Positions 1-64,000 of a DNA stretch of 64,000 bases are shown here, one piece after another. The stretch spans positions 248,001-312,000 of the forward strand of contig NZ_JACRVF010000003.1 of the NCBI RefSeq assembly GCF_014306105.1, in the 5' to 3' direction. The number at the start of each line of letters is the position of its first letter. Positions within the stretch are counted from its first letter, which is position 1. Origin of the DNA: Pontibacter cellulosilyticus. Its GTDB lineage: Bacteria; Bacteroidota; Bacteroidia; Cytophagales; Hymenobacteraceae. The notes beneath the pieces were generated by a model. It saw only the letters and a program-made list of their open reading frames with translations, had not been told where the DNA came from and ran no database searches. A program made the position numbers and the translations under genes.

Positions 1-1
1 T

Positions 2-319
2 TTTGAATTTTATAGTGACTATATAAAGGAGGTATATGAAAGGCAGCCAAAATTTTTATTCCAATTAAACATTGATTTATTACAGCTTTATTTTAAATTA
101 CTGAAGCTGAACAAGCCACTCCGGTACACTACATTTTACAGTGAGCAGGCTCCGGAAAACGTGTTGGACTTAAGAAATAAGATTCATCCCAAAATCTATC
201 CTGACAATTTGCACGTAAAACCCTATACACAAGTATTTGGCAAACAATTTGTACCAGAGCTAAGTATAATTGACTTGTTGTTTACCCAAGGGCCAGCATC
301 GCTTTCATATCTGCAGTAG
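2..319 (+). CDS. WbqC-like family protein, C-terminal part (5' end outside window)
   Basis: An open frame runs from the window edge to TAG at 317-319 and encodes the last 105 residues of a protein. The tail has the shape of the WbqC-like family: a helical stretch rich in Leu and Tyr, a segment with HPK and Y-P-D, then the closing motif LSIIDLLFTQGP followed by SLSYLQ. WbqC-like proteins are common in Bacteroidota and are often linked to surface polysaccharide loci, but their reaction is not settled. The start and most of the protein lie upstream of the window, so length and operon context cannot be judged. The family call rests on this C-terminal motif only. Confidence 0.7.
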   Translation, partial: FEFYSDYIKEVYERQPKFLFQLNIDLLQLYFKLLKLNKPLRYTTFYSEQAPENVLDLRNKIHPKIYPDNLHVKPYTQVFGKQFVPELSIIDLLFTQGPASLSYLQ

Positions 320-431
320 GGGTTCGTGATTACTGAACATTAATACTGCACAGCTTGTTTAAAGGTAGCGTTCGAAGTAAGCTTCAGCCAATTAACATTT
401 TTTGACTTTTTTAAGATTATATAAAGTATAC

Positions 432-3032
432 ATGGAAGCTAAATTCTCAAACCGAGTGAAAGAGGTTATCTCGCTCAGCCGTGAGGAAGCTATCCGTCTT
501 GGTCATGACTATATTGGCACTGAACACCTGGTGCTGGGCATGATACGGGAAGGAGAAGGTACAGCCATTGCTCTGCTTAAGAAGCTTGGCGTTTCGATAG
601 ATGAGTTAAAGTACGCTTTAGAACAAGCTACCCGAAATACAGCGACGCAAAGCAGCAACATTACCGGCAGTATCCCGCTTACCAAGCAGACTGAGAAGGT
701 GCTGAAGATAACATACCTGGAGGCGAAGATCTTCAAGAGTGATATCATTGGTACAGAACACCTCTTATTATCCATCCTGCGGGATGAAGACAACATTTCT
801 TCACAAATCTTAGCGAAATTCAACGTGAACTACGAAGCAATAAGAGACTCCCTGGATTATCATAGTAATAATCCACTGGCATCGTCTGATACAGACGACA
901 CAGATGATTCGGACAAGTTTTTGGGCAGTTCTTCATCTCGCTCAAGCAGCAGTAAAAAGCCAGGCGAAAAATCGCGCACCCCGGTGCTCGATAACTTTGG
1001 CCGCGACCTAACAAAGCTGGCAGAAGATGATAAACTGGATCCAATTGTTGGCCGTGAAAAAGAAATTGAGCGTGTGGCACAGGTACTTAGCCGCCGCAAA
1101 AAGAACAACCCTATACTTATAGGTGAGCCAGGTGTTGGTAAAACAGCCATCGCCGAAGGTTTGGCCTTGCGTATTATCCAGAAAAAGGTAAGCCGTGTGT
1201 TGTTTAACAAACGTGTGGTTACTTTGGATCTTGCTTCGCTGGTTGCCGGTACTAAGTATAGAGGTCAGTTTGAAGAGCGTATGAAAGCCGTGATGAACGA
1301 ATTGGAGAAGTCTCCGGACGTGATCCTGTTCATCGACGAGTTGCATACGATTGTGGGTGCCGGTGGTGCCTCTGGCTCCTTGGATGCCTCTAACATGTTT
1401 AAGCCTGCGCTTGCCCGTGGCGAGATTCAGTGCATCGGTGCCACTACTTTGGATGAGTACCGCCAGTACATCGAGAAAGATGGTGCCCTTGCCCGTCGTT
1501 TCCAGATTGTAATGGTAGACCCTACTACGCCGGAAGAGACGATCGAGATATTGAACAATATCAAGGACAAGTACCAGGATCACCACCATGTAAACTATAC
1601 TGATAAGGCTATTGAGGCCTGCGTTAAGCTTTCAGATCGTTACATGAGTGACCGCTTCCTTCCAGACAAAGCCATCGATATTTTGGATGAGGCTGGTGCG
1701 CGTGTGCACATCAACAACATCATTGTTCCGGATGACATTCTGAAGCTTGAAGAGCAGATCGAGAACATTAAAGTGGAGAAAAACCGTGTAGTAAAGAGCC
1801 AGAAGTATGAAGAGGCTGCTCAACTGCGCGATAAAGAGAAAAAACTCATCGATCAGCTTGAAACGGCTAAGCGTGACTGGGAAGAAGAGACGAAGAAGAA
1901 GCGTTATACCGTAAAAGAGGAAAATGTGGCAGAGGTTATTGCCATGATGACAGGTATTCCGGTAAAACGTATCGCTCAGAATGAGGGCGTGAAGCTCCTG
2001 AACATGGGCGAAGAGCTGAAAGGCAAAGTGATTGGTCAGGACAAGGCGATTACGCAGCTGGTGAAAGCCATCCAGCGTACACGTGTAGGTTTGAAAGATC
2101 CGAAGAAGCCGATTGGTTCATTTGTGTTCCTTGGCCCGACTGGTGTAGGTAAAACAGAACTTGCCAAAGTATTGGCTACGTACCTGTTCGATAAGGAAGA
2201 TGCGCTGGTGCGTATAGACATGAGTGAGTACATGGAGAAATTCAGTGTATCTCGCTTGGTCGGAGCGCCTCCGGGATATGTGGGTTACGAAGAAGGTGGC
2301 CAGCTGACTGAAAAGATCCGTCGTAAGCCATACTCTGTAGTATTGCTGGATGAGATTGAGAAAGCGCACCCGGATGTATACAACCTGTTACTGCAGGTGC
2401 TAGATGATGGTATACTTACTGACGGATTAGGCCGTAAGGTTGACTTCCGTAACACGATCATCATCATGACATCCAACATCGGTGCCCGTGACTTGCAGGA
2501 CTTCGGTGCCGGTATCGGCTTCATGTCGAAGAGCAAGCAGGAGAACGTAGACGATATCATGAAGAGCACTATTGCAAGTGCGCTGAAGAAAACGTTCTCG
2601 CCTGAGTTCCTGAACCGTCTGGACGACGTGATCGTGTTTAACTCGCTTAACCGTGAGGATATGCACAAGATTATCGAGCTTTCTCTTGGCAAGCTGTTCA
2701 AGCGTGTGGAAGGACTTGGTTACAAGATCGAGCTTACTGCTAAAGCCAAAGACTTTGTTGCCGAGAAAGGCTATGATCCGAAGTATGGTGCTCGTCCGCT
2801 GAACCGTGCTATCCAGAAGTACATCGAAGATCCAATTGCTGAGGAGATCCTGAAAGCAGAGGTGAATCAGGGTGATTTGATAAAAGTAGACTACGAAGAA
2901 GGCAAAGAGCAACTTAGCTTCACATCAGCCAAGTCGAATGGCAAGAAAGGCAAAGCCTCTTCAGCCTCCGATGAGGAAGAAACAGAGCCTACTAAATCAT
3001 CAGGAACAGATAAGACCAAAGACAAAGAGTAA
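432..3032 (+). CDS. clpC: ATP-dependent Clp protease ATP-binding subunit ClpC
   Basis: AAA+ unfoldase that feeds substrates to ClpP in the cytoplasm. The 866-residue protein has two N-terminal Clp_N repeats (about residues 1-150), a low-complexity Asp/Ser linker (about 150-185), a first AAA+ module with Walker A GEPGVGKT near residue 231, a UVR-like coiled segment near 450-475, and a second AAA+ module with Walker A GPTGVGKT near 568. The UVR region and overall plan fit ClpC rather than ClpB or ClpA. The C-terminal 30 residues are a Lys/Ser/Glu-rich extension. I chose ATG at 432 because [12 protein letters not shown] matches the usual ClpC N-terminus; an upstream TTG at 402 adds ten unlikely residues. 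AAGTATA sits just before the start. A strong terminator follows. Confidence 0.96.
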
Positions 3033-3051
3033 CTCAAATAAAGCATAGTAT

Positions 3052-3084
3052 AAAGGCTGCCTGTCTCAGGCAGCCTTTATTTTT
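3052..3084 (+). terminator. Rho-independent terminator of clpC
   Basis: Perfect 12-bp stem (AAAGGCTGCCTG at 3052-3063, its complement at 3067-3078) with a 3-base loop, followed by a T-rich run. It lies 20 bases after the clpC stop. Confidence 0.93.
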
Positions 3085-3247
3085 TAAAAGCCTCAGCACT
3101 AACTATTCTACATTTGCCGTGTTATTTTCTTATCTGCTCTAAACTATATATTCAAAAATTGCTGTAATAGTACCGGATTTAGGAGCAGAGTTTTTAAATT
3201 TGAGAATTAATCTATTTGAATCCTTAACATAGTTATACTACATATAC

Positions 3248-4807
3248 ATGGCCGGAGAAATCAGAGAAGCCCAAATAGCAACACTTGAGCGTAAAAACGC
3301 AGAAGCCCTTTTGGGTGGCGGAGAAGACCGAATAGCAGCACAGCATAAAAAAGGAAAATTAACAGCCCGTGAGAGAATTCACCTGTTAATGGATGAAGGC
3401 TCTTTTGAAGAGATTGGCAAGTTTGTGATGCACCGCTCCAAAGACTTCGGCCTGGACAAGCAGTACTTCCTGGGCGATGGTGTGGTAACCGGTTATGGCA
3501 CAATTAACGGCCGATTGGTTTATGTTTTCTCACAGGACTTTACTGTACTGGGAGGCTCACTTTCTGAGACACACGCCGAGAAGATCGTAAAGATAATGGA
3601 GCTTGCCATGAAGAATGGTGCCCCGGTTATTGGCCTGAATGACTCAGGTGGTGCCCGTATCCAGGAAGGTGTGGTATCGTTGGGTGGCTATGCCGATATT
3701 TTCTACCGCAACACGCTGGCTTCTGGCGTAATTCCACAGATCTCAGCTATTATGGGACCATGCGCAGGTGGCGCTGTATATTCACCTGCCATCACCGACT
3801 TTATCATGATGGTGGAGAACACATCTTACATGTTCGTAACCGGCCCTAACGTAGTAAAGACAGTAACGCACGAGGAAGTTACTTCTGAAGAGCTTGGCGG
3901 TGCCAGCACCCACAGCACAAAAAGCGGTGTTACCCACTTCTCCTGCGCCAATGAAGTAGAATGTATCAACTACATCAAAAAACTGTTAAGCTATATTCCT
4001 CAAAACTGCGAAGAGCTTCCGCCATCATTGCCTTATGAGCCAAAAGCCGACGAAACACGCAATGTGCTGGACACGATCATTCCTGAAAACCCGAACCAGC
4101 CTTACGATATCCGTGAAGTAATTGAGGGCATTATAGATGAGGACACTTTCTTTGAAGTACACAAGAACTTCGGCGATAACATAGTAGTTGGTTTTGCCCG
4201 TTTGGGTGGCAGAAGTATAGGCATTGTGGGCAACCAGCCTGCTGTACTTGCCGGTGTACTCGACATCAATGCAAGCACTAAAGCTGCCCGTTTCGTACGT
4301 TTCTGCGATAGCTTTAACGTGCCTTTGCTTGTATTAGAGGATGTACCGGGCTTCCTGCCGGGTACAGACCAAGAGTGGCGTGGCATTATCACCAACGGTG
4401 CCAAGCTGCTTTATGCTTTCTGCGAGGCTACTGTACCGCGCATCACCGTAATTACACGTAAAGCCTATGGCGGTGCTTACGACGTAATGAACTCCAAGCA
4501 CATTGGTGCCGACATGAACTTTGCCTGGCCAACCGCTGAAATTGCAGTAATGGGTGCACAGGGCGCTGCTGAAATTATCTTCAAGCGTGAAATCGCTGAA
4601 TCAGAAAATCCTGCGGAGAAGCTGGCTGAAAAAGTACAGGAGTATAAAGATAAATTTGCCACTCCTTACCGTGCCGCGCACCGTGGATTCATTGATGAAG
4701 TTATACTTCCGTCTGAGACACGTTCCAAGCTGATTAAGGCATTTAAGATGCTGGAAAATAAGGCTGTGTCTTTACCTCGCAAAAAACACGGAAACATTCC
4801 GCTATAA
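3248..4807 (+). CDS. pccB: Acyl-CoA carboxylase carboxyltransferase subunit (propionyl-CoA carboxylase beta type)
   Basis: Carboxyltransferase subunit that moves the carboxyl group from carboxybiotin to an acyl-CoA, most likely propionyl-CoA, giving methylmalonyl-CoA. The 519-residue length is normal for the family. Both crotonase-like halves are present: the N-terminal half has GGARIQEGV near residue 138 and [12 protein letters not shown] near 170; the C-terminal half has [12 protein letters not shown] near 325 and [10 protein letters not shown] near 404. The long form without a zinc finger separates it from bacterial AccD. No biotin carboxylase or biotin carrier gene is adjacent, so the partner is encoded elsewhere. 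Substrate preference (propionyl versus other acyl-CoA) cannot be read from sequence alone. Confidence 0.9.
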
Positions 4808-4903
4808 ACACACATATACTATACCTATGGCCTGTGCTCCGGTTAATTTGCCAGAGCACAGGCTCATTTGATTAAACACTAACCAAACAACCTCACCTTG
4901 AAC

Positions 4904-5974: not shown

Positions 5975-5992
5975 GATTTATACTTATACTTT

Positions 5993-6028
5993 AAAAGCCT
6001 CACAGCCTATTTGGCTTGTGAGGCTTTT
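5993..6028. terminator. Bidirectional terminator between convergent genes
   Basis: Inverted repeat AAAAGCCTCACAGCC / GGCTTGTGAGGCTTTT with one bulged T and a 5-base loop. A-tracts and T-tracts on both sides let it serve both the M42 gene and the amidohydrolase gene. Confidence 0.88.
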
Positions 6029-6046
6029 GCTTTTAATACAGAGAAT

Positions 6047-7435: not shown

Positions 7436-7539
7436 TTTAGAATTTGTTTGTTTTACATTTAAAGCAAACGTAAACATTATTTCCAAATTATGCGGCCATC
7501 ATCCGCCCAAACTGATTTCCTGCCATACTCTAAAAGCTT

Positions 7540-7547
7540 TACCTTTG
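7540..7547 (+). promoter_or_regulatory. Possible Bacteroidota -7 element (TACCTTTG)
   Basis: Exact match to TAnnTTTG only 4 bases before the ATG at 7552. No good TTTG lies 19-20 bases upstream. If used, the transcript would be leaderless. Confidence 0.3.
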
Positions 7548-7551
7548 AAGT

Positions 7552-8355
7552 ATGAACCTTCCTATCATCTCCAAAGATCAAATGGGCCACAGCTTAGTGC
7601 TGGAGCAACTGCCACAGCGCATCTTATCGTTGGTTCCTTCTCAAACCGAGCTACTCTTTGATCTTGGCTTGGGAGATAGAATAGTAGGCGTAACTAAATT
7701 CTGCATTCACCCTAAAGAGCAGGTAAAGCAGAAACCAAAGATTGGAGGCACTAAGAATTTTAAGTTTGATGTAATTGACCAACTGCAACCTGACCTGATA
7801 ATTGGCAACAAAGAAGAAAACTACCAGGAGGGAATAGAGCAGCTACAGCAAAAGTATAACGTATGGATGAGTGATATTTATACTTTGGATGATGCGCTGG
7901 AGATGCTGAGGCAGGTAGGGCAGCTAACAGGTACCGAAGCAAAAGCCGCTGAGCTAGAACAAAGTATAAAAGCCGGTTTTGAGCAGCTAAAGCCACTGCA
8001 GCCAAGTATAAAAACAGCTTACTTTATCTGGCGGAAGCCTTATATGGCCGTAGGAACCAACAACATTATAGACCATATGCTGCAGCGCTGCGGACTAGAC
8101 AATGTGTTTGGACATCTCTCACGCTACCCCGAAATAACAGCCGAGCAACTGCAACAGGCAAACCCACAGCTTATACTTTTATCATCAGAGCCCTATCCTT
8201 TTAAAGAAAAGCACATACAGGAGTTTCAGGAAATTTGCCCGCAGGCAAGTATAAAAGTAGTGGACGGCGAGATGTTTAGTTGGTACGGCAGCAGGCTGTT
8301 GCAGGCTCCGGCTTATCTGCAGCAGGTTATTGATGAGGTTCGGCAGGAAGCTTAA
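7552..8355 (+). CDS. Helical-backbone metal receptor (BtuF/FepB-like), no signal peptide
   Basis: A periplasmic-binding-protein fold of the helical backbone metal receptor type (the BtuF class): LSLVPSQTELLFDLGL near residue 25, GGTKNF near 65, LQPDLIIGNKEENY near 75, and a C-terminal lobe ending SRLLQAPAYL. Such proteins bind corrinoids, haem or ferric chelates. This one is 267 residues and has no signal peptide or lipobox, and no permease or ATPase gene is next to it, so a classic uptake role is doubtful; short stand-alone forms are common in Bacteroidota. ATG at 7552 fits the family N-terminus. The coding sequence carries six copies of AAGTATA/TATACTT. It converges on the next gene with a single base between the two stops. 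Confidence 0.83.
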   Translation: MNLPIISKDQMGHSLVLEQLPQRILSLVPSQTELLFDLGLGDRIVGVTKFCIHPKEQVKQKPKIGGTKNFKFDVIDQLQPDLIIGNKEENYQEGIEQLQQKYNVWMSDIYTLDDALEMLRQVGQLTGTEAKAAELEQSIKAGFEQLKPLQPSIKTAYFIWRKPYMAVGTNNIIDHMLQRCGLDNVFGHLSRYPEITAEQLQQANPQLILLSSEPYPFKEKHIQEFQEICPQASIKVVDGEMFSWYGSRLLQAPAYLQQVIDEVRQEA

Positions 8356-8356
8356 A

Positions 8357-8881: not shown

Positions 8882-8886
8882 GGGCT

Positions 8887-11150: not shown

Positions 11151-11237
11151 TCTGGGTTAGTGAGTTAGAGAGTATGGGAGTTAAAAAGCCGTTCTTGCTG
11201 CAAAACAACAATCAACAATTTAACCATCAGCAATTAA

Positions 11238-20426: not shown

Positions 20427-20469
20427 ATTGCTATAGTTTTAGAGAGCGCTGCAAAGTATACTTCAATTT

Positions 20470-37717: not shown

Positions 37718-37927
37718 GGTCCAACCACCCCTGCCCCTCCTTATCTAAGGAGGGGAACTCTGCTACCACTGTCTCAACTCTTATCACAATAGCTGCGGCT
37801 CTTCTTCTTGTCGTTATAAGAAAATTTTATTTAGAGTGAGGTTAAGCAATAGCTATGAGCCGATACTTTAGCAGAAGTAATAGGGGGCTCCCCTCCTTAG
37901 GTAAGGAGGGGCAGGGGTGGTTGGACC
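37718..37927. repeat. Repeat element copy 1 (inverted-repeat, MITE/REP-like), 210 bp
   Basis: Outer arms of about 40 bp read GGTCCAACCACCCC... inward from both ends and differ at two positions. Each arm itself contains a short palindrome of the type CCCCTCCTTA/TAAGGAGGGG. The inner part is unrelated to protein coding. The inner sequence runs opposite to that of copy 3 (TAACCTC and TACTTCTGC appear on the other strand). It lies between recN and fabI. Same length class as copy 3 (209 bp). Confidence 0.88.
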
Positions 37928-37999: not shown

Positions 38000-39679
38000 T
38001 TACATCGACAGTAATTCCTTTGCACTCTTAAAAGCACTAGCGCTTGGGTTAGCGCCAGCAATCATGTGTGCAATTTCGTTTACACGTTCTTCTTTGTTCA
38101 GCTTTTTGATGCGGCTGATGGTGCGGTCTTCGGTATCGTGCTTGTAGACAAAGTAATGCGCGTTGCCCTGTGCAGCAATTTGTGGCAAGTGCGAGATAGC
38201 AATGATCTGGTGCTTCTGCGCCATCTGCTGCATCATCTTACCCACTTTAACTGCCACTTCTCCGGATATACCCGTGTCAATCTCATCAAAAATGATGGTT
38301 GGCAAGGCGGTTTTATCAGCTAGCATGTACTTCACACTAAGCATCAACCTGGAGAACTCACCACCAGAAGCAGCTTTTACCAGCGACTGCGGTTGTGCGC
38401 CTTTGTTAGCGCTGAAAAGTATACTTATCTCGTCAGTACCTGTAGCAGACGGTGTTGTATTAGCGTGCTGGATAACGATACGTGCATTTGGCATACCAAG
38501 CTCAGCAAGCAAAGTATAAAGTTCCTGCTCAAACTGGCCGAATGATGACTTACGACGCTCAGAAAGTATAGCTGCTTTGCCAAGAACCTCCTTCTCTGCC
38601 TCTTCCATGGCTTTTTTAGTGCTGGCAATGGCAGCATCTAAGTTAAGTACGCTTCCAACTTTCCCTTCCAGATCACGCTGTATCTCCAGTAACTCTGCAT
38701 TAGACTGCACCTGGTGCTTACGCTGTAAAGTATAAATCATATTCAGGCGTTCCTGCACTTCTACGGTACGCTCAGGGTCTGCTTCTGTCTTACGTTCTGC
38801 ATCTTCCAACTCACCGGCAATATCGTTCAGCTCAATCATGCAGCTCTCGGTACGAGTGCGTAACTCGTCATACTTCGGAGAGAATTGCGCCAGCTGCCCG
38901 ATCAGATGTGCTGTGTCTTTTAAAGCTGATGTGATGTTGAATTCCGACTCTGTGAGGTACTGCACGGCCTGCGTTAGCTTTACCTTAATATCTTCAGCGT
39001 TTTCCAGCTGCTTCAGTTCATTCTCCAGTTCTTCCTGCTCGTTCTCCTGCAGGTTTGCCTCCTCCAGTTCGTTCAGCAGGAATGTGTGGTAGTCGAGTTC
39101 TTTCTGTGCCTGCGCCAGCTGGTCTTCCAGCTTACGGTACTCTGATTCCAGTTTCTTATACTTGCGATAGGTGTCGTTATAGTCTTTTAAGTAAGACAGG
39201 TTTCCAGCATAAATATCCAGCGAGGTATTGCCGGCATACACGTCAAGTATATTTAGCTGATAGCTGGTATCACCTAGCTGCAGCGTGTCGTGCTGCGAGT
39301 GGATGTCCATCAGGTTCTCCCCTATTTTACGGATCACATCCAAAGTTACAGGCGTGTCATTTACAAACGCGCGCGACTTGCCGCTTGGGCTGATCTCACG
39401 GCGCAGAATGCACTGGTCATCATAATCCAGGTCCTCAGCAGTAAACACCTCTTTCAGGTTGTACGACGAAATATCAAACACCCCTTCTATCACACACTTC
39501 TGCTCCTGGTCAAACAGCAGCTTGGAGTCGGCGCGGTTGCCCAGCAGTAAGCCAATAGCCCCCAGCATGATGGATTTACCGGCACCGGTTTCGCCTGTAA
39601 TAATGTTCAGCACCGGAGACGGGTTCATCTCCAGCTTCTCGATCAGGGCGTAATTCTTTATTTTAAGATCTATCAGCAT
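38000..39679 (-). CDS. recN: DNA repair protein RecN
   Basis: SMC-like ATPase for double-strand break repair. 559 residues: Walker A GETGAGKS at residues 29-36 after the typical start MLIDLKIKNYALIEKLE, a Q-loop region HSQHDTLQLG near 127, two long coiled-coil arms (about 165-235 and 300-375), then the C-terminal ATPase half with the signature segment AASGGEFSRLMLSVKY near 443 and Walker B TIIFDEIDTGISGEVA near 470. It is slightly longer than E. coli RecN (553). A perfect 14-bp palindrome sits 5 bases before the ATG. It is the distal gene of the bamD-rpoZ-coaBC-DUF4835 neighbourhood. Confidence 0.96.
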   Translation of the reverse strand: MLIDLKIKNYALIEKLEMNPSPVLNIITGETGAGKSIMLGAIGLLLGNRADSKLLFDQEQKCVIEGVFDISSYNLKEVFTAEDLDYDDQCILRREISPSGKSRAFVNDTPVTLDVIRKIGENLMDIHSQHDTLQLGDTSYQLNILDVYAGNTSLDIYAGNLSYLKDYNDTYRKYKKLESEYRKLEDQLAQAQKELDYHTFLLNELEEANLQENEQEELENELKQLENAEDIKVKLTQAVQYLTESEFNITSALKDTAHLIGQLAQFSPKYDELRTRTESCMIELNDIAGELEDAERKTEADPERTVEVQERLNMIYTLQRKHQVQSNAELLEIQRDLEGKVGSVLNLDAAIASTKKAMEEAEKEVLGKAAILSERRKSSFGQFEQELYTLLAELGMPNARIVIQHANTTPSATGTDEISILFSANKGAQPQSLVKAASGGEFSRLMLSVKYMLADKTALPTIIFDEIDTGISGEVAVKVGKMMQQMAQKHQIIAISHLPQIAAQGNAHYFVYKHDTEDRTISRIKKLNKEERVNEIAHMIAGANPSASAFKSAKELLSM

Positions 39680-39698: not shown

Positions 39699-39924
39699 TA
39701 GACATAAGATGTAAGACTTTTTGCCTATGCTAAAGTTCGGTATTTCTGTAAAATTTTTGATGTGGTGGAAGTATAAATTATACTTTGCTTCTGCACTCAA
39801 GGTAATGATAAAATTCTCTGTTGGTTAGAAGGCGTCTGTTTTACTAATATCACTAGCTTAACCTCCCTCCTTTAAAGAACCCTTCCGGATTATAAAGCAG
39901 AGAAAACATAGGCTGAAGTATACT

Positions 39925-40155
39925 TTAATAAGGAGCCTCTATATCGTAGATGATTTCCTCTACCTCCTCTGGCAGGAACTCATGCTTATTAAATCTGAAA
40001 TCCTTTAGCTGCAGTTTACCTGAATTTATACTTGATAATGAGCCCGCTAACACTACTTTGCTGCGTAGCACCACTTGTACAGCAGGTTGCTGCACCAGCT
40101 CTGGCAGGTGTTTCTCTAAGTCTTTCCGGAAGATGCGGACCTGGCGTTTGCCCAT
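39925..40155 (-). CDS. Small conserved-looking protein with Sm-like pattern
   Basis: 76 residues. After a basic helix (KRQVRIFRKDLEKHLPELV) the chain shows five probable beta strands: AVQVVLRSKVVLAG, GSLSSINSG, KLQLKDFRFN, KHEFLPEE and VEEIIYDIEAPY. The order helix plus five short strands, with a V-x-L-x-x-x-V-x-x-G-x-L start and a closing I-x-x-I segment, resembles Sm/Hfq-type barrels. Sequence identity to Hfq is not evident, so this is a fold guess. It lies between the DUF4835 gene (74 bases) and recN (245 bases) on the same strand, so it may be co-transcribed with the former. Function unknown. Confidence 0.6.
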   Translation of the reverse strand: MGKRQVRIFRKDLEKHLPELVQQPAVQVVLRSKVVLAGSLSSINSGKLQLKDFRFNKHEFLPEEVEEIIYDIEAPY

Positions 40156-45404: not shown

Positions 45405-46736
45405 ATGCTACAGAAAGTTTCAGGTTTTATACAAGCGCAAGATCTTTGCCAACCCGACAGTAAAATTTTAGCAGCCGTTAGTGGCGGCATCGATTCGGTA
45501 GTGCTCTGCGAAGTGCTGCACCAGCTAAAGTATGATTTTGCCATCGCACACTGCAACTTCGGACTACGCGCTGAAGACGCCGAGGCCGATCAACTATTCG
45601 CCAAAAAGCTTGCCAAACAATACGATGTGCCGTTCTTTACCGAAAACTTTAACACACGTGCCTTTGCCGAGCAGGAAAAAATATCTATCCAGATGGCTGC
45701 CCGCACATTGCGCTACGAATGGTTTGAGCAGGTGCGCCAGCAGCAAGGATATGATTACATTGCCACTGCCCACCATAGTAACGACCTCACCGAAACCATA
45801 TTGCTGCACCTGACCAGAGGCACAGGCATTGCAGGGCTACATGGTATACCACCTAAAAACGGCCACATCATACGCCCAATGCTCACAGTTACCAAAGACG
45901 ATATCTACGACTTTGTAACCTCCTCTAAGCTGATCTGGCGCGAAGATGTATCCAATGAGACCACCAAGTACCAGCGTAACAAAATAAGGCTTGAGGTAAT
46001 TCCGGTACTAAAGGAGATAAACCCGAGCCTGGAGGAAACCATGCAGCAAACTGCCGAGCGTGTAAGCCACGCTGAAAGTATAGTGGCAGCCTATATACAG
46101 AACCTGCGCGAGCAAAGTATAAAAGAGGCCGAAAATGCATGGTACATCTCACTAGTGCCGCTGCAGAATGCCACAGGCATGCCAGTTGTGCTGCACGAGC
46201 TGCTGCGCCCGTTCAACTTTAGCTACACTGTGGTGCTGGAGTTGGCAGAGGCACTGGAGGGCATATCAGGCAAACAATTCGACTCCCCTACTCACACCTT
46301 GGTAAAAGACCGGGACCAACTGGTGATTACGCCACGCAACCTGAGCACCTTCGGAAGTATACTTATAAACGAAGGAGACACTGAGGTAGAAGCCGGCAAT
46401 TTATACTTCAGCATAAAATATGTGGATGCCGATAAGTATAAACTGAACATCAAACCACACGTAGCCGCACTGGATGCTGACCAGCTTAAGTTTCCGTTGA
46501 AGCTGCGCAACTGGCAGGAAGGCGACTGGTTTGTGCCGCTGGGCATGAACGGCAAGAAAAAAATCAGCGATTTTCTGATAGACAAGAAAATCCCGGCCAA
46601 CCTTAAGCCCCAAACACTAGTACTGGTATCTGACCAATCCATCGCCTGGATCGTTAATCAGCGGCTGGATAACCGCTTTAAAGTAACAGATAAGACGGAG
46701 CGGGTAGTGGAGATAAGCGTGCAGGCAAAGCCTTAG
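45405..46736 (+). CDS. tilS: tRNA(Ile)-lysidine synthetase
   Basis: Modifies C34 of tRNA-Ile(CAU) to lysidine so that it reads AUA. 443 residues. N-type ATP pyrophosphatase P-loop SGGIDS at residues 26-31, AHCNFGLR near 49, ATAHHSNDLTETILLHL near 122, GIPPKNGHIIRP near 148, and NETTKYQRNKIRLEVIP near 185. The C-terminal domain (KFPLKLRNWQEGDWFVPLGM, KKISDFLIDKKIP near 365-400) is the TilS-C tRNA-binding module. AUA decoding matters here, as the genome-wide AAGTATA motif often places ATA codons in genes. The gene is bracketed by a short repeat on both sides. Confidence 0.95.
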   Translation: MLQKVSGFIQAQDLCQPDSKILAAVSGGIDSVVLCEVLHQLKYDFAIAHCNFGLRAEDAEADQLFAKKLAKQYDVPFFTENFNTRAFAEQEKISIQMAARTLRYEWFEQVRQQQGYDYIATAHHSNDLTETILLHLTRGTGIAGLHGIPPKNGHIIRPMLTVTKDDIYDFVTSSKLIWREDVSNETTKYQRNKIRLEVIPVLKEINPSLEETMQQTAERVSHAESIVAAYIQNLREQSIKEAENAWYISLVPLQNATGMPVVLHELLRPFNFSYTVVLELAEALEGISGKQFDSPTHTLVKDRDQLVITPRNLSTFGSILINEGDTEVEAGNLYFSIKYVDADKYKLNIKPHVAALDADQLKFPLKLRNWQEGDWFVPLGMNGKKKISDFLIDKKIPANLKPQTLVLVSDQSIAWIVNQRLDNRFKVTDKTERVVEISVQAKP

Positions 46737-47848: not shown

Positions 47849-47873
47849 TTCTTAAAGTATACTTATTGATTTG

Positions 47874-47962: not shown

Positions 47963-48227
47963 GGTCCAACCACCCCTAACCCCTCCTTGTCTAATGCGGG
48001 GAATTTCCTGCATACGATTATCACCCCCCTACCCCCCTTCAAAAGGGGACTTTCGGTCCTGCTTTTTGCAGAAGTATTAGTTCTGTAGTTTTCTTTTAAC
48101 CTCCCTTCACACAAGATCTTTACAAGATGACAAAGAGGAAGAATGGCTTTAAATATATTGATGGTAGTTGGAGCAGTAAGTATAAATTCCCCGCCTTGGA
48201 CAAGGAGGGGTTAGGGGTGGTTGGATC
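47963..48227. repeat. Repeat element copy 2 (inverted-repeat, MITE/REP-like), 265 bp
   Basis: Outer arms begin GGTCCAACCACCCC on the left and end GGGGTGGTTGGATCC on the right; inner arm ends differ more (CCCCTCCTTGTCTAATGCGG against CCCCGCCTTGGACAAGGAGG). It is longer than copies 1 and 3, with an extra C-rich stretch near 48025-48060. The inner box AAGATCT-T-ACAAGATGACAAAG is shared with copy 3 in the same orientation. Located between convergent mdh and rhomboid genes. Confidence 0.85.
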
Positions 48228-55389: not shown

Positions 55390-55411
55390 AAGATATTATG
55401 TAGTTTAGCAG

Positions 55412-55436
55412 GTGCAGCCCTTTATATTGGCTGCAC
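55412..55436 (+). terminator. Hairpin after the GH3 fusion gene
   Basis: GTGCAGCC / GGCTGCAC with a 9-base loop, 22 bases after the stop; T-poor tail, so a weak terminator or a processing site. Confidence 0.55.
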
Positions 55437-55462
55437 TTGTTATTTACACAGCAAGCACAACT

Positions 55463-56599: not shown

Positions 56600-56617
56600 T
56601 TTTCAGACTGTTTGCTT

Positions 56618-56652
56618 AAAATCCGGTTGCTGCGTAAGCAACCGGATTTTTT
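56618..56652 (+). terminator. Terminator of bshA
   Basis: 14-bp stem AAAATCCGGTTGCT and complement at 56637-56650, 5-base loop, then further T residues and TATACTT. Confidence 0.95.
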
Positions 56653-56713
56653 ATACTTATATTTAATAAGGCTCCTGCTGCCGTACCTGTACATCCTCTA
56701 TAGCATCCGCACT

Positions 56714-58606: not shown

Positions 58607-58615
58607 CATTAAAAG

Positions 58616-58657
58616 AAAAAGGGGCCACAACTATACTTGCTGTGGCCCCTTTTTTAT
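58616..58657 (+). terminator. Terminator of the SerB-SerA fusion, TATACTT in its loop
   Basis: 14-bp stem AAAAAGGGGCCACA and complement at 58641-58654; the 11-base loop is ACTATACTTGC; T-run follows. Confidence 0.95.
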
Positions 58658-58669
58658 TTTGATCATATT

Positions 58670-59203
58670 TTAAAATACCTGCCCTATCTCCTGCTTTACA
58701 AAGCTGATGGCACGTGCAGTCGGGTCACTTTCGGAAGCAAGTATCGTTTCCAGAATTTTTTTGGCCAGGTCGGTTCCTTTTGCATTTTCGGGCAGCTCCC
58801 TGTACGTTTTGTTGATCAGGTTTACTACTTCCTCGCGGGCATGTTTTACCTGCTGCCATGCCTGCTCCGTCATGTACACCTGCTGTGACATATTGTGGTT
58901 AAACTCGCTCCGGATCTCAGCCAACAACAAACGGTGGTACTCAGCAGCTGTTTGTCCGGCGGCACCAACGCGTAGCAGCATGTTGCTTGGTGTGATGCGC
59001 TCCAGCAGCAGCACAACACGCTCATAGGCCTGCAGTCTAATCGGCAATACTGTATCCGCGTTCTTTTTGCGCAGGTCCAGCAAACGCAACTTATAGTCAC
59101 GCTCATAATGCTTCTTTACAAGGTAATACATAGCTCCTGCCACAATTATAGCCGGAAGCGCAATTTTGATAAGCTCTATGATAAGTATGGTTACTTCTTG
59201 CAT
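58670..59203 (-). CDS. Membrane-anchored hypothetical protein of a Bacteroidota family
   Basis: 177 residues. One N-terminal membrane helix (residues 4-30, LIIELIKIALPAIIVAGAMY), then a charged helical domain: RDYKLRLLDLRKKNADTVLP near 35-53, LQAYERVVLLLERITPSNML near 57-76, AEYHRLLLAEIRSEFNHNMS near 86-105 and VYMTEQAWQQVKHAREEVVN near 109-128. No catalytic motif. I believe such proteins form a conserved family of unknown function in Bacteroidota. The N-out/C-in topology is inferred from the positive charges after the helix. It converges with the SerB-SerA gene and is read away from the IscA-type gene. Confidence 0.8.
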   Translation of the reverse strand: MQEVTILIIELIKIALPAIIVAGAMYYLVKKHYERDYKLRLLDLRKKNADTVLPIRLQAYERVVLLLERITPSNMLLRVGAAGQTAAEYHRLLLAEIRSEFNHNMSQQVYMTEQAWQQVKHAREEVVNLINKTYRELPENAKGTDLAKKILETILASESDPTARAISFVKQEIGQVF

Positions 59204-59327
59204 TTCTGTTTTCTGGTTTGGCTATAAATATCGCAAAAAATTAATCTAATACCCATGAATCATTTATTCGCTTTACCTGTTAACTTATTAGAACGATTCG
59301 CCACGAGCATAATTAAGAAGAATTGCT

Positions 59328-59335
59328 TAAGTTTG
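59328..59335 (+). promoter_or_regulatory. Possible -7 element (TAAGTTTG) of the IscA-type gene
   Basis: Exact TAnnTTTG match, 28 bases before the ATG at 59364. No TTTG at the normal -33 spacing. Confidence 0.35.
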
Positions 59336-59363
59336 TGGCTACAAATAATGAATAGCTTATACT

Positions 59364-59711
59364 ATGGCAACAGAAACAAAAACTGCACCTATTACTCTAA
59401 CAGAAAGAGCTTTAGCTGAAGTTAAAAATATAATGCAGGAGAAGAATGTACCAGCAGAATACGGTTTGCGCGTTGGTGTGCAGGGCGGTGGCTGTTCTGG
59501 TATGTCTTACCTGTTGGGCTTCGATAAGGCGAAGGATTCTGACGAAATCTTCCATTTGGAAGGCGTTGACCTGATCATGGACAAGAAACATGCGATGTAT
59601 GTGCTTGGCATGCAGGTTGATTTTCAGGATGGTTTAAATGCCCGTGGATTTGTTTTCAACAACCCTCAGGCTACAAGCACCTGCGGCTGTGGCAGCTCCT
59701 TCTCAGCATAA
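59364..59711 (+). CDS. Iron-sulfur cluster assembly A-type carrier (IscA/SufA/ErpA family)
   Basis: Carries or passes Fe-S clusters or iron during cofactor assembly. 115 residues. The three conserved cysteines are present: Cys 44 in GGGCSGMSYLLGFD, and Cys 107 and Cys 109 in STCGCGSSF. Start: TATACT directly before ATG. Which of SufA, IscA or ErpA it matches in role cannot be told by sequence; no suf or isc gene is adjacent. A terminator follows, then repeat element 3. Confidence 0.93.
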   Translation: MATETKTAPITLTERALAEVKNIMQEKNVPAEYGLRVGVQGGGCSGMSYLLGFDKAKDSDEIFHLEGVDLIMDKKHAMYVLGMQVDFQDGLNARGFVFNNPQATSTCGCGSSFSA

Positions 59712-59739
59712 GTAAGATACCTTCTTTCTCTTTAGATAG

Positions 59740-59768
59740 GCAAAGCCCGGCATATAGTCGGGCTTTGC
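59740..59768 (+). terminator. Terminator of the IscA-type gene
   Basis: 10-bp stem GCAAAGCCCG / CGGGCTTTGC, 9-base loop, followed by TGTTTT. Confidence 0.85.
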
Positions 59769-59825
59769 TGTTTTAGATCAGGATTAGCAGGATGAATGGA
59801 TGAACAGGATTGCCTGCAGCAACTT

Positions 59826-60034
59826 GTCCAACCACCCCTGCCCCTCCTTATCCAAGGAGGGGAGCTCTGGAACTACTTCTGCAAATTAACATGGCCTTTA
59901 GCTTCTGCGTAACCTCCCATCTACCAAGATCTCTCCAAGATGACAAAGAATATAACATCAACTATTGTGATGGCAGAAGAGAAAGTAAATAAAAGCTCCC
60001 CTCCTTGGATAAGGAGGGGCAGGGGTGGTTGGAC
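59826..60034. repeat. Repeat element copy 3 (inverted-repeat, MITE/REP-like), 209 bp
   Basis: The outer 41 bases at each end (59826-59866 and 59994-60034) are exact inverted copies. The arms contain GTCCAACCACCCCTG next to a palindrome CCCCTCCTTA/AAGGAGGGG. The inner 127 bases include AACCTCCC and a box AAGATCT-C-CCAAGATGACAAAG shared with copy 2. The left flank TGCAG-N-AC before the arm is also kept in copies 1 and 2. Just upstream, GGATTAGCAGGATGAATGGA is a second repetitive-looking stretch. No coding capacity. Located between convergent genes. Confidence 0.9.
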
Positions 60035-60160
60035 CCGGCAACTATAGGAAGCTAGCCTGGAGACTCGCACGCACCCTAGATACCCGCCCCAGAAGTATAA
60101 TCTAGTAATAGGTCTGAAACAGAAACTTATACTTCTCTACCTCAATACTTTTCTAACTTT

Positions 60161-61048
60161 CTAATAAGTCCTCGTCATACTTGCCGGCACTACAAGTATA
60201 AAGTCTGCCTTATTTTTGTGCTCCTCCGACAGCTTTTCCAGGTCCTCCTGCAGCACTGTGGTGATGGTAAACGTCTTAAGCTGAGGATTGCCTTGTTTCA
60301 GATACCAGCCTATTCCTTCAAAATTATCGGAGTGGTAGGCTCCATTGAAATGCAGCACCTTTTTGCCTGCATTTACCTGACCAAGTATAAAATGCGCCAT
60401 GGTAGCATCTTTCAGAGCCTGTGCCTGCACAATGTTCTGGCTTTTAGTATTGCCGTGTGTACTGCTTCCAAACATGGCTAGCATATTTTTATAGCCCAGC
60501 AACTCCATATCTACCTTTATAGGCAGCGGTGCGATATACTTTTTTGCATCAGCAGAAACATTCTCCAAAGCAGTTAGACTTCCGGCGGCAACTGTGGCTG
60601 CATAACGGCGCGGCACATTGGTGGCAATAAAGGGTAACTTGTTATCCTTGGCGTAACGCACCAGTGGTTTGTAATCAGTCTTATAGTTAGTCCAGATGCG
60701 TGACTCCTGCTCAAAGTTGTTTTCTGGCACTACGCCAGCCAGGTACTCGTTCAGCACTAGTTGTACATCGGCTTCAAACATTTCGGCACCCAAGGCTAAG
60801 TTTTGCTTATGCTCTTTGTGGAGGTCTTTTGACAATTCCAGTTGCAGCCAGTGCGCAATAGGATCATTGTGCTGCTCCCCGAACAACACCACATCAGCCT
60901 CCTCCAACTCATCCAGCATCTTGCTATACTTTATACTTTTGCCATTCTTTGTGAATAGCTGGTAAGCCGGCTTATCTTTATTCTGGGCAAATGTTGTAAG
61001 TGCTGTCATCATCAGAAACAGAATAAGGGCAGGTAATATGTTTTTCAT
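60161..61048 (-). CDS. ChaN family (haem-binding uptake, Tiki-like) exported protein
   Basis: 295 residues. Signal peptide of about 21 residues ending TFAQ. The ChaN/Tiki superfamily core is clear: DVVLFGEQHNDPIAHWLQLE near 53-72 (the GEQHN motif), LALGAEMFEADVQLVLNEYL near 84-103, ATNVPRRYAATVAAG near 143 and KVLHFNGAYHSDNFEGIGWY near 229-248 (GAYHSD motif). ChaN of Campylobacter binds two haems; Tiki members are metal-dependent proteases. Here no lipobox Cys is seen, so it is probably a soluble periplasmic protein. Role in iron or haem handling is inferred from the family only. Confidence 0.85.
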   Translation of the reverse strand: MKNILPALILFLMMTALTTFAQNKDKPAYQLFTKNGKSIKYSKMLDELEEADVVLFGEQHNDPIAHWLQLELSKDLHKEHKQNLALGAEMFEADVQLVLNEYLAGVVPENNFEQESRIWTNYKTDYKPLVRYAKDNKLPFIATNVPRRYAATVAAGSLTALENVSADAKKYIAPLPIKVDMELLGYKNMLAMFGSSTHGNTKSQNIVQAQALKDATMAHFILGQVNAGKKVLHFNGAYHSDNFEGIGWYLKQGNPQLKTFTITTVLQEDLEKLSEEHKNKADFILVVPASMTRTY

Positions 61049-61078
61049 CTAAGCGTGATTTTATACTTCAAGATACAA

Positions 61079-61108
61079 AAAAGCCGGTACTGCAGAGCAC
61101 CGGCTTTT
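61079..61108 (-). terminator. Terminator of the ABC exporter operon
   Basis: AAAAGCCGGT / ACCGGCTTTT with a 10-base loop; T-run on the minus strand. Confidence 0.9.
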
Positions 61109-61125
61109 ATACTTTATACTTGTAG

Positions 61126-62475
61126 CTATACTCTGTAGAAGAGCCACTTCGAAAGTTCTTTGTAGTTGATCTTTTTGCCGTACATCAGGATACCAATGCG
61201 GTAAATACGGGCCGCTATCCAGGTGGTAAAGACGAAACCCAGTACCAGCAGCGCCATCGAAAGCAGTAGTTCCCAGGCAGGTACACCAAACGGCACGCGC
61301 ACCATCATCACAATCGGAGAGGTTAAAGGTATAATCGACATCCAAAATGCAACTGGTCCGTCAGGGTTTTTGAGCACCAACGTATACGACATGATAAAAG
61401 AGATGATCAGCGGGATCGTAATCGGGAACATGAACTGCTGCGTGTCTGTCTCGTTGTCTACGGCTGCACCTATGGCCCCGAATAGGGAGCCATACAGCAG
61501 GTAGCCTCCTAAAAAGTAAAACAGGAAACTACCAAGTATAAGCGGAAAGTTCAGGTTAGAGATGGCTGCCATACTTTCGCTGACCACTTTTGCTGCTCTG
61601 TCTTCTTCCTGTGCCTGTGCATCGGCATCATCCACTTCTTCTCCCAATGCAGCTTCTCGGCCGCTCGCCATTTGCTCTAAAGGCGTTGGCGGCGGCTTCA
61701 CACCAAACGCTGACTGCACCCCTCCCACTACAATCAGCGAGAGAACAATCCAGAGCAGGAACTGCGTGAGTCCCACGGCAGCTATACCTACTACCTTACC
61801 CATCATTAGTTGGAACGGCTTTACCGAAGAAATAATCACCTCAATAATGCGATTCGTTTTCTCCTCTATCACGCCGCGCATAATCTGCACACCATACATA
61901 AAGATGAAGAAGTAGATAATCACGGCTCCTGCCACACCTGCTATGGAGTTAGCCACCACACTGCTGTCTCTCTCACCTTCATCACTCAGGTTGATGGTTG
62001 TCAGCGAAATGTCTGCTTTTATTTTCTCGAGCGTTTCACGTTCCATGCCAGAGGCAATAAAGCGCTGGTTCTCCACCTCTTTTTCCAGCGCATTCTCCAG
62101 GCGCACTTTGGTTTGCAAGCTGGCACTCTTCTTAGAGTAGATAACTACTTTCTCCGGTTCACTTATACTAAAATCCCTTGGGATATAAAGCAAAGCAGTA
62201 TTGTCTGTTTCGCGGTACACCGTTTTAGCTTGGTCCAGCGTCCCGGCCAACGGCAAGAACTTCAGGTCTTTTTTATCTTCCAACTTATCGGCAAACAGGC
62301 CACTTTCGTCCAGCACCATTACGGTTTCGGCACTATCGGAGATGGTAACCAACCAGGCAGGCACAATCATAAAGGCTGCCAGCAACAGCGGGGTAAGCAG
62401 CGTCATGATGATGAAGCTTTTCTTACGCACTCGTGTCAGGTACTCACGCTGAATTATTAGCCAGATTTTATGCAT
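61126..62475 (-). CDS. ABC-2 type transporter permease (NatB-like)
   Basis: 449 residues. One membrane helix at residues 19-44 (SFIIMTLLTPLLLAAFMIVP), a periplasmic domain of about 140 residues, then six helices: GAVIIYFFIFMYGVQIMRG near 183, MGKVVGIAAVGLTQFLLWIV near 228, a loop rich in Asp/Glu/Ala, LILGSFLFYFLGGYLLYGSL near 317, IPLIISFIMSYTLV near 357 and LLSMALLVLGFVFTTWIAAR near 414. The plan matches NatB/YhaP-type ABC-2 exporters; EEKTNRIIEVIISSVKP near 211 is a typical family segment. Overlaps the end of the ATPase gene by 8 bases, so translation is coupled. Substrate (Na+, peptide or drug) unknown. Confidence 0.9.
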   Translation of the reverse strand: MHKIWLIIQREYLTRVRKKSFIIMTLLTPLLLAAFMIVPAWLVTISDSAETVMVLDESGLFADKLEDKKDLKFLPLAGTLDQAKTVYRETDNTALLYIPRDFSISEPEKVVIYSKKSASLQTKVRLENALEKEVENQRFIASGMERETLEKIKADISLTTINLSDEGERDSSVVANSIAGVAGAVIIYFFIFMYGVQIMRGVIEEKTNRIIEVIISSVKPFQLMMGKVVGIAAVGLTQFLLWIVLSLIVVGGVQSAFGVKPPPTPLEQMASGREAALGEEVDDADAQAQEEDRAAKVVSESMAAISNLNFPLILGSFLFYFLGGYLLYGSLFGAIGAAVDNETDTQQFMFPITIPLIISFIMSYTLVLKNPDGPVAFWMSIIPLTSPIVMMVRVPFGVPAWELLLSMALLVLGFVFTTWIAARIYRIGILMYGKKINYKELSKWLFYRV

Positions 62476-63379
62476 GGTGGGTTTCTTTTACTTTTCTGAT
62501 AAAGATATCGTTTATACTTGGCACCAACTCTATAAAAGAGTGTATCTCTACCCGCGGAATCAGGTACGCCAGCAGATCATTGGGCTTGGTATTGTTAAGT
62601 AGCTTAATATTGGCCCTGAAAATGCCATGGCTCTCATGTTGCTCCAGCACCTCAAAATCAGGTGAGGTAACGAGTAAATGGCCATTGCCTATTATCTGGT
62701 ATGTATCGGTTTTGTAGGCATCCTTCACTTCTTTTACCGGGCCATCCAACACTTTCCGAGAACGGTTTATCAAAGCAATATAATCGCAAAGCTCCTCTAC
62801 CGACTCCATGCGGTGCGTAGAGAAGATAATGGTGGCACCCCGCTCACGCAAACGCAGTATCTCGTCTTTTATCAGGTTGGCGTTGATTGGGTCAAATCCA
62901 GAGAAAGGCTCATCAAGTATGATCAGGGCTGGCTCGTGCATAACGGTAGCAATAAACTGCACCTTCTGCTGCATCCCCTTAGATAGATCTTCGATCTGCT
63001 TGCCCATCCACTCTTTAATCTCAAACCTGTCAATCCACTCCTTTATCCTGGTTTTGGCTTCGTCTTTACTTAGGCCTTTCAGTTGCGCCAGGTACAGTAA
63101 CTGCTCCCCTACCTTCATCTTTTTGTAAAGGCCGCGCTCTTCAGGCAAGTAGCCAATGTCTTTTATATGAGCAGGCTTCAGGCGTTCCCCCTTAAAGTAT
63201 ACTTCGCCGCTATCAGCTCCGGTTATCTGAGTAATAATGCGAATCAGAGAGGTTTTACCGGCGCCATTCGGACCCAGTAAGCCAAAGATGCAGCCAGTAG
63301 GAATCTCGAAGCTCACGTTATCGAGGGCAGTATGGTTGCTATAGCGCTTGGTTACGCCGTCAATTTTCAGGATGCTCAA
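62468..63379 (-). CDS. ABC transporter ATP-binding protein (NatA-like)
   Basis: 303 residues, ATPase of the exporter with the next gene. Walker A GLLGPNGAGKTSLIRI near 33-48, Q-loop TQITGADSG near 51, signature DLSKGMQQKVQFIATVMHE near 134-152 (variant of LSGGQ, as LSKGM), Walker B ALIILDEPFSGFDPI near 154-168, and switch His in IFSTHRMESVEEL near 186. The C-terminal 80 residues form the small domain usual for DrrA/NatA proteins. A promoter of the CTTG-N20-TATATTTG type lies 24 bases upstream. Confidence 0.92.
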   Translation of the reverse strand: MSILKIDGVTKRYSNHTALDNVSFEIPTGCIFGLLGPNGAGKTSLIRIITQITGADSGEVYFKGERLKPAHIKDIGYLPEERGLYKKMKVGEQLLYLAQLKGLSKDEAKTRIKEWIDRFEIKEWMGKQIEDLSKGMQQKVQFIATVMHEPALIILDEPFSGFDPINANLIKDEILRLRERGATIIFSTHRMESVEELCDYIALINRSRKVLDGPVKEVKDAYKTDTYQIIGNGHLLVTSPDFEVLEQHESHGIFRANIKLLNNTKPNDLLAYLIPRVEIHSFIELVPSINDIFIRKVKETHHA

Positions 63380-63402
63380 CGTTGAATTGCTTTTGATGTA
63401 CT

Positions 63403-63434
63403 CAAATATAGGTTTATACTATGTTTAGGACAAG
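63403..63434 (-). promoter_or_regulatory. Bacteroidota-type promoter of the ABC exporter operon
   Basis: Minus strand CTTG (63434-63431), 20-base spacer, TATATTTG (63410-63403). Same spacing as the bamD promoter. Confidence 0.6.
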
Positions 63435-63520
63435 TTTTCCTAAGGTATAGCCAATGTATAATCGACTAAGCTGCATATACGCCGGACCAATAAGAAAGTA
63501 TGAAGGATTAAGAAGTATAA

Positions 63521-63565
63521 AAACAGAAGAGCCGCTCTCCACGTGGAAAAGCGGCTCTTCTGTTT
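63521..63565 (-). terminator. Terminator of dnaJ
   Basis: 16-bp perfect stem AAACAGAAGAGCCGCT and complement at 63550-63565; the loop contains TCCACGTGGA, a 10-bp palindrome that can extend the structure. AAGTATA lies 8 bases outside it. Confidence 0.92.
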
Positions 63566-63579
63566 AGTATCAGCCTCTG

Positions 63580-63999
63580 TTACTGAAAGTAATCCTTCAC
63601 TTTCTCAAAGAAGCCTTTTTCGTTTTTACCCGGGTGTGGAGCAAAGTTTCTTGACTCACGCAGGCCTTCCAGCACAGCACGCTCCTCGTTGCTCAGAGAT
63701 TTCGGGGTCCATACGTTAATGTGGATCAACTGATCGCCGGTGCCGTAGCCGTTTATATCTTTGATGCCTTTCCCGCGCAGCCTGAAAATCTCTCCGCTTT
63801 GCGTACCTGGCTTAATGCTGATCTTTACTTTGCCTGTTATGGTCGGTACTTCGATCTCGGCACCCAGCGCAGCATCAACAAAGCTGATGTACTGGTCATA
63901 GATCACGTTATTGCCATCGCGCTTCAGGGTTGGATGCTGCTCCTCCTCTATCTGTATAAGCAAGTCGCCTGGTATTCCGCCACGTTCTGGCACGTTACC
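63580..63999 (-). CDS. dnaJ: Chaperone protein DnaJ, C-terminal part (5' end outside window)
   Basis: The frame is open to the window edge (first full codon at 63999) and gives the last 139 residues of the C-terminal substrate-binding region of DnaJ: GGIPGDLLIQIEEEQHPTLK, FVDAALGAEIEVPTITGKVK, IKPGTQSGEIFRLRGKGIKD and GDQLIHINVWTPKSLSNEER, then a Gly/Asn/Lys-rich end FFEKVKDYFQ. These are the beta-domain motifs of type I DnaJ. The J domain and zinc-finger region lie outside the window. The grpE and dnaK genes usually nearby cannot be checked. Confidence 0.93.
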   Translation of the reverse strand, partial: GNVPERGGIPGDLLIQIEEEQHPTLKRDGNNVIYDQYISFVDAALGAEIEVPTITGKVKISIKPGTQSGEIFRLRGKGIKDINGYGTGDQLIHINVWTPKSLSNEERAVLEGLRESRNFAPHPGKNEKGFFEKVKDYFQ

Positions 64000-64000
64000 T

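Follow-up and report, generated by a model that had tools for sequence, protein, structure and literature searches.

The heptamer AAGTATA is scattered at very high density, in both orientations, through a 64-kb stretch of Pontibacter cellulosilyticus DNA (hereafter the window, G000:C7:248001-312000, where G000 is the 4.61-Mb, 13-contig genome of this strain) and through the genome as a whole, and in sister species one-base variants take its place. We propose, with about an even chance of being right, that Pontibacter chromosomes are marked as self throughout by this word, which would work like the DNA uptake sequences (DUS) of Neisseriaceae and Pasteurellaceae, by way of biased transformation or recombination. 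A reading made from the sequence alone had noticed the dense word and left three roles for it: an uptake signal, a chi-like site and a site for a nucleoid protein. An uptake-signal-like role agrees best with the dialects of the word, its scarcity in plasmid-like contigs and its spread over both strands; the chi-like role is poorly supported, and a chromosome-binding site keeps a smaller share of the probability.

The window holds 149 copies (65 on the plus and 84 on the minus strand), compared with 10.4 ± 2.8 in 100 dinucleotide shuffles, the largest of which gave 17 and none of which reached 149, and with 30.1 expected from a third-order Markov model fitted to the window. Over both strands of the whole genome there are 9120 copies (4391 + 4729), or 1978 per Mb, against 531 (263 + 268) of the reversed word, so that the dispersal goes beyond what the sequence-only reading had claimed. 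That reading had proposed a third-order Markov expectation as the yardstick, and the counts lie far above it: 994 copies against 203.6 in a 464-kb sample of the same genome (the own sample), in which AAGTATA tops the lists of over-represented 6-, 7- and 8-mers. With the sites masked out of the model the expectation is 74, a 13.4-fold excess. Equal enrichment of similar A/T-rich heptamers, which had been named as the contrary outcome, is not seen, since 20 of the 21 one-mismatch heptamers stand at 0.93-2.24-fold of the site-masked model in this genome; the exception, AAGTATG at 6.0-fold, is counted as a weaker form of the motif. The base directly 3′ of the word in the own sample is preferably A (57%) and seldom T (6%), and there is little information more than two bases outside the core. 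Composition, codon usage or artefact might be invoked for a word that is A/T-rich and readable as common codons in one frame. This explanation, to which we give practically no credence, is refuted by a 13- to 24-fold excess of the clade word over the masked third-order model in three genomes, by the use of six frames with intergenic density above genic, and by the far rarer reversed word in the same genomes; the enrichment of sister species for a one-base variant instead also speaks against it.

With coding and intergenic DNA assigned by mechanical open reading frame calls, the density of AAGTATA rises from 1.81 per kb in coding sequence to 4.46 per kb between genes in the own sample, and from 1.71 to 7.77 per kb in P. 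mucosus. Every one of the six reading frames is used (60 to 222 sites per frame in the own sample), and accumulation of the word also shapes coding, in that ATA codons lying wholly within sites make up 13% of all ATA codons of that sample. A promoter or terminator role was rejected, as the sites in tandem gaps of the own sample run 80 with and 66 against the genes and a fixed distance to gene starts is absent. There is a mild excess within the first 25 bases 3′ of stop codons, and convergent gaps are the densest gap class in three of four sets. Spacing is near random and mildly clustered in the own sample. Tandem or fixed spacing was also discarded: the 6-bp series in this sample was traced mostly to one (AAGTAT)n array at G000:C1:235320 (L092:15320), a microsatellite built from the word, with eleven overlapping copies. 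Same-orientation AGGTATA spacings of 6, 12, 18, 24 and 30 are over-represented in HSC-36F09 (L101-L110; 18, 13, 13, 10 and 11, respectively), and a similar array probably lies in that sample.

Words were counted in 99 genomes, namely that of P. cellulosilyticus, 49 from other members of the genus, 11 from elsewhere in the family and 38 from elsewhere in the order. A strong excess of AAGTATA over the reversed-word control is found in genus members only; no comparable density occurs in the 49 family and order genomes outside the genus, where the ratio to the reversed word is at most about 2.5. Marked genomes carry their clade word at about 0.8-3.1 per kb. In some named Pontibacter loci AGGTATA replaces AAGTATA as the top word, and the nine genomes of this kind that were counted have 5,748-9,303 copies; whole-genome AGGTATA counts span 37 of the 50 genus genomes, G041, G048 and G049 being placed in this group from their RecN loci, and G043 and G038 being classed as unmarked and pure AACTATA, respectively, each without an AGGTATA count. 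The third dialect, AACTATA, reaches 194-257 copies per 80 kb in G018, G031 and G045, where 12-15 are expected, and up to 13,168 copies in a whole genome. G018, G031 and G045 were sampled, along with G047 and G002, as members of the genus whose counts were low or intermediate; G047 uses AACTATA together with AAGTATA, and G002 uses neither. The mixed genomes are G047 (11,674 AACTATA and 5,110 AAGTATA), G033 (6,094 and 9,116), G027 (8,118 and 7,552) and G044 (3,531 and 10,614). The 50 genomes thus divide into 19 with AAGTATA, 12 with AGGTATA, four with AACTATA, four mixed and 11 unmarked, the last meaning little or not enriched: G007 is borderline, its 0.59 per kb being about four times what the reversed-word control gives, and several further unmarked genomes stand at 1.8-2.5 times the control, a level shared by some other genera of the family. 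A TATA core is constant across the three words. The AACTATA-dialect word leans towards a palindrome, AACTATAGTT being frequent in that clade (71 in 240 kb of G018, G031 and G045; L144-L155) and not the rule.

The dialects follow the phylogeny. In a tree built from RecN only, in which 15 of 52 inner branches are weakly supported, the AGGTATA species form a single clade of 12 (support 100) and the AACTATA users together with three mixed genomes a single clade of seven (support 99); AAGTATA is scattered over the remaining species, and the distribution of marked and unmarked genomes requires five changes.

Other frequent words came to light in the compared genomes. The sister genus Hymenobacter may have words of its own: CTAGGCCA occurs about once per kb in the whole loci of H. 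wooponensis and H. fodinae (L054 and L073; 22 and 25 copies, where 21.6 kb would be expected to hold about 1.6), and the palindrome ACCTAGGT at nine places in H. crusticola (L072), where 0.2 are expected. Hymenobacter piscis L080:7997-8204 is mostly a 7-bp tandem array with 21 copies of AATTAAGA. In 222 kb of the unmarked P. beigongshangensis (L122-L131, L021), ATTAGAATAA/ATTATTCTAA repeats number 26 and 24 and may represent a small repeat element.

The history of individual sites was read from MAFFT alignments of the syntenic region, with the truncated locus L016 excluded. Only sites whose 60 flanking columns showed 60% identity or more were counted, and the number of distinct sites behind many comparisons is small (for most of the second alignment, 28-81 columns per row). 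Gaps lie opposite AAGTATA sites in 0.4-0.8% of AAGTATA-to-AAGTATA comparisons, a figure that the flank filter itself helps to keep low; sites therefore come from point substitutions. The same site is present in dialect-sharing species in 47% (AAGTATA) and 70% (AGGTATA) of comparisons and in unmarked species in 6% and 5%, respectively, kinship contributing to this sharing in that species of one dialect are also closer kin. In close-species pairs, site conservation beats that of control words of the same GC content in six of seven pairs, for example 25 of 36 sites kept against a control fraction of 0.346 in win-L001 and 26 of 28 against 0.482 in L007-L009; it is not above the control in L022-L028 (4 of 13 against 0.333). 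Dialects change in part by re-spelling of existing sites and in part by turnover. Of the 66 distinct AGGTATA sites in the second alignment, 14 are spelled AAGTATA in a species of that dialect, compared with a mean of 0.2 and a maximum of 2 for displaced sites, and one is so spelled in an unmarked species. Among 60 AACTATA sites, 10 have an AAGTATA site at the same place (mean of 0.2 after displacement, which is the sole control here). Private sites are common, 86 of 155 AAGTATA sites occurring in one of the 12 compared species.

An origin by substitution would also suit a mutational or repair bias, similar to very short patch repair, that converts near-words to the word without selection, and such a bias is compatible with the dense filling of intergenic DNA and the disregard of frame. 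It should drain its substrate words, yet under the site-masked model no one-mismatch word is clearly depleted: the lowest ratio is 0.93 in the own genome, 0.78 in P. mucosus (15 observed) and 0.69 for AGGTATA in HSC-36F09 (18 against 26), the latter two from small counts. This argues against repair that consumes specific precursors, and very-short-patch-type repair was rejected on these word ratios, no search for Vsr itself being made; a balance of mutation with drive or selection would produce such a pattern. A mutational bias should furthermore act on resident plasmids too, yet the word is scarce there, and we consider this explanation improbable.

That scarcity was seen in four plasmid-like contigs, namely the second contigs of G001, G020 and G021 and G000:C13, of which 100 of 116, 100 of 204, 74 of 74 and 40 of 64 kb were sampled. 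They carry the word at 0.23-0.40 per kb, against whole-genome means of 0.82-1.98 per kb, with the reversed word at 0.07-0.28 per kb. G021:C2, which bears relaxase, TraG and TraM genes, has 0.27 per kb compared with 1.74 for its genome; the plasmid status of the other three is putative. G000:C13 encodes P-type ATPases and a resistance-nodulation-division pump.

We propose that a sequence-specific DNA-binding component of uptake, or of the handover to recombination, would prefer DNA bearing the clade word, so that fragments with the word would replace alleles without it and sites would accumulate by molecular drive wherever coding permits. A one-base shift in the specificity of this putative receptor would then lead to re-spelling of the sites, partly in place, and give the dialects AAGTATA, AGGTATA and AACTATA around a constant TATA core, and loss of the preference would let the sites decay. 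The uptake words of Pasteurellaceae and Neisseriaceae, and the molecular-drive view of them, are treated in PMC1939737, and excerpts of PMC3630211 make the DUS dialects of Neisseriaceae the nearest parallel: short non-palindromic words in thousands of copies, with dialects that follow phylogeny around an invariant inner core (CTG there, TATA in Pontibacter). Excerpts of PMC7371117 add an uneven distribution of DUS in mobile elements. DUS differ in having ten bases rather than seven and in belonging to another phylum, Pontibacter has few inverted pairs and no type IV pilus ATPase was found in it, and uptake, established for DUS, is what we infer here. The core of the uptake signal sequences (USS) of Pasteurellaceae starts with AAG, as the Pontibacter word does, and USS have spaced flanking tracts, unlike the present word, the information of which ends about two bases outside the core. 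High density and lack of palindromy are shared with USS, with which PMC7811141 and PMC12616744 deal.

The word resembles a DUS or USS in being short, non-palindromic, in great genome-wide excess and in both orientations, in having lineage-specific dialects with a common core, in being scarce in plasmid-like DNA (0.23-0.40 per kb in the four contigs, three of them only putative plasmids) and in occurring alongside the core competence gene ComEC, though this is also present in genomes without the word. We do not claim membership in that class because no type IV pilus with a DNA-binding minor pilin came to light (PF00437 search) and because the uptake side is conjectural. The putative receptor would accordingly be something other than a type IV pilin. 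The more specific proposal, a pilus-free, self-recognising uptake or recombination system that evolved independently in Pontibacter, with at least three dialects, about five losses and a sequence-specific DNA-import receptor of a new class in Bacteroidota, is put forward tentatively.

Several observations weigh against an uptake-like mark. Characterised uptake-sequence systems depend on type IV pili, and in the 50 genus genomes the type IV pilus ATPase (PF00437) gave weak partial matches only, three of them just over the cut-off, in a search that covered the ATPase and not the pilins themselves. ComEC, the inner-membrane DNA channel of transformation, has a match in all 50, including the 11 unmarked genomes, and therefore cannot explain presence or absence of the word. 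The ComEC matches of two marked genomes contain one in-frame stop each (G009:C76:160505-161305 and G022:C1:2771217-2771876), reflecting either a pseudogene or an assembly error, and comparison of eight 3.8-kb ComEC loci revealed one gene common to six and none that distinguishes the dialects. Most dialect sites are not co-located (the 14 of 66 AGGTATA and 10 of 60 AACTATA sites given above), and of the 155 AAGTATA sites 14 are AGGTATA in an AGGTATA species and nine are AGGTATA in an unmarked species, a weaker contrast than that seen when starting from the AGGTATA sites. Inverted pairs are typical of Neisseria uptake sequences; they are not prominent here, with 18 convergent and 10 divergent AAGTATA pairs no more than 30 bases apart in the own sample, the overlapping palindrome excluded. 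There is also the weak strand bias with GC skew described below. One 20-kb piece of G020:C2 has 1.00 per kb, exceeding the G020 mean of 0.82, and the plasmid-like contigs may have been acquired recently. In favour of the mark, unmarked genomes are larger than marked ones (median 5.8 against 4.6 Mb, Mann-Whitney p 3.6e-6, from rounded sizes for the relatives), but this difference is only suggestive, with four to five independent lineage pairs on which a sign test cannot reach significance.

Next in likelihood to the DUS-like mark, and clearly behind it, comes a word like the highly iterated palindrome 1 (HIP1) of cyanobacteria, whose density would be kept by selection for chromosome binding or modification through an orphan methyltransferase or a protein of the nucleoid, of segregation or of repair, uptake playing no part. 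HIP1 is the nearest parallel that does not involve uptake: the excerpts of PMC4390886 give about 500-2500 copies per Mb, comparable to the 1978 per Mb found here, and report that some genomes have other words in its place, related to it or not, several of which match a predicted methyltransferase. At its central T and A the Pontibacter word has little one-mismatch halo (0.84-1.23 in the own genome and P. mucosus, except 1.5-1.7 for C in place of A), comparable to the bias against deviation at methylated HIP1 positions in the same excerpts. HIP1 and its variants are, however, palindromic, HIP1 being an octamer linked to known methyltransferases, whereas AAGTATA and AGGTATA are not palindromes. 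Nor does any of four N6-adenine methyltransferase families (PF01555, PF07669, PF02384 and PF02086) follow the word in the 50 genomes at family level; as each family pools many orthologous groups, a single group may still do so. PF01555 is missing from 19 of 50 genomes, including the own genome and all four pure AACTATA genomes, and PF02086 from 37 of 50; PF02384 has only short weak matches in the own genome (23.0 and 20.6 bits); PF07669 is matched in 38 of 39 marked and nine of 11 unmarked genomes, with one partial match over the cut-off (41 bits, in a 1162-codon frame) and one below it in the own genome. A nucleoid role alone would not predict scarcity in resident plasmids.

A chi-like hotspot read by an AddAB or RecBCD-type nuclease would share with the word its shortness, density and lineage-specific spelling, and site strand asymmetry does correlate with GC skew in the AACTATA clade (r 0.62 over twenty 20-kb samples of one complete chromosome). 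Of chi, a strong preference for the leading strand would be expected. The bias found in these samples is only 667 to 588 (53:47), and the 464 kb of the own genome divide 499 to 495 between the strands. Polarity of the kind shown by chi or by FtsK-orienting polar sequences was rejected on this slight bias, and a chi-like site of unusually little polarity is very unlikely.

Within the window, the six sites that the sequence-only reading had named in the gene at 7552-8355, a periplasmic-binding-protein gene (PF01497), are all present. Its counts elsewhere were slightly low: tilS (45405-46736, TIGR02432) has six sites instead of five, and the clpC-like gene (402-3032) four, at 424, 1112, 1254 and 2411, instead of about three. 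With 1.5 per kb, where coding DNA averages 1.8, the latter is therefore not clearly poorer, and the suggestion of scarcity in conserved genes does not hold for it; elsewhere in the window lysS and mutL have few sites (0.65 and 1.08 per kb, respectively) and recN has many (4.17). The sites concerned, and the double sites of the window, are as follows.

7852..7858, plus strand: AAGTATA site in the periplasmic-binding-protein gene
7879..7885, minus strand: AAGTATA site in the same gene
7962..7968, plus strand: AAGTATA site in the same gene
8004..8010, plus strand: AAGTATA site in the same gene
8172..8178, minus strand: AAGTATA site in the same gene
8247..8253, plus strand: AAGTATA site in the same gene
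20454..20463: palindromic double site AAGTATACTT
38417..38426: palindromic double site AAGTATACTT in recN (38000-39679, TIGR00634), which has seven AAGTATA sites in total
39916..39925: palindromic double site AAGTATACTT
46076..46082, plus strand: AAGTATA site in tilS
46115..46121, plus strand: AAGTATA site in tilS
46355..46364: palindromic double site AAGTATACTT in tilS, the overlap of sites 46355 and 46358
46402..46408, minus strand: AAGTATA site in tilS
46434..46440, plus strand: AAGTATA site in tilS
47855..47864: palindromic double site AAGTATACTT
61108..61121, minus strand: two abutting AAGTATA sites
63195..63204: palindromic double site AAGTATACTT

The RecN protein of the window is 98% identical to that of Pontibacter aydingkolensis, which places the DNA in Pontibacter, and two other proteins encoded there have type IX secretion system sorting domains, as suits a member of Bacteroidota. 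A GTCCAACCACCCCT...CCCCTCCTTA/G...AAGGAGGGG-like element forms inverted pairs about 200-250 bases apart at 37719-37926, 47964-48223 and 59826-60034 and resembles a repeat of the repetitive extragenic palindrome/bacterial interspersed mosaic element (REP/BIME) type.

The origin and change of DNA uptake words are debated. Among the matches listed in the open-licence literature there is no earlier account of this word in Pontibacter, nor of an uptake word in Bacteroidetes/Bacteroidota. Fifty genomes of one genus with three dialects, mixed genomes and about five losses amount to a natural experiment, the pattern of which lets selection, drive and mutation be separated and the trans-acting factor be sought by gene content. 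If the word is not an uptake mark, it would be a second HIP1-like riddle with better comparative power; if it is, it would point to a new DNA receptor in Bacteroidota and to a barrier to gene transfer between species.

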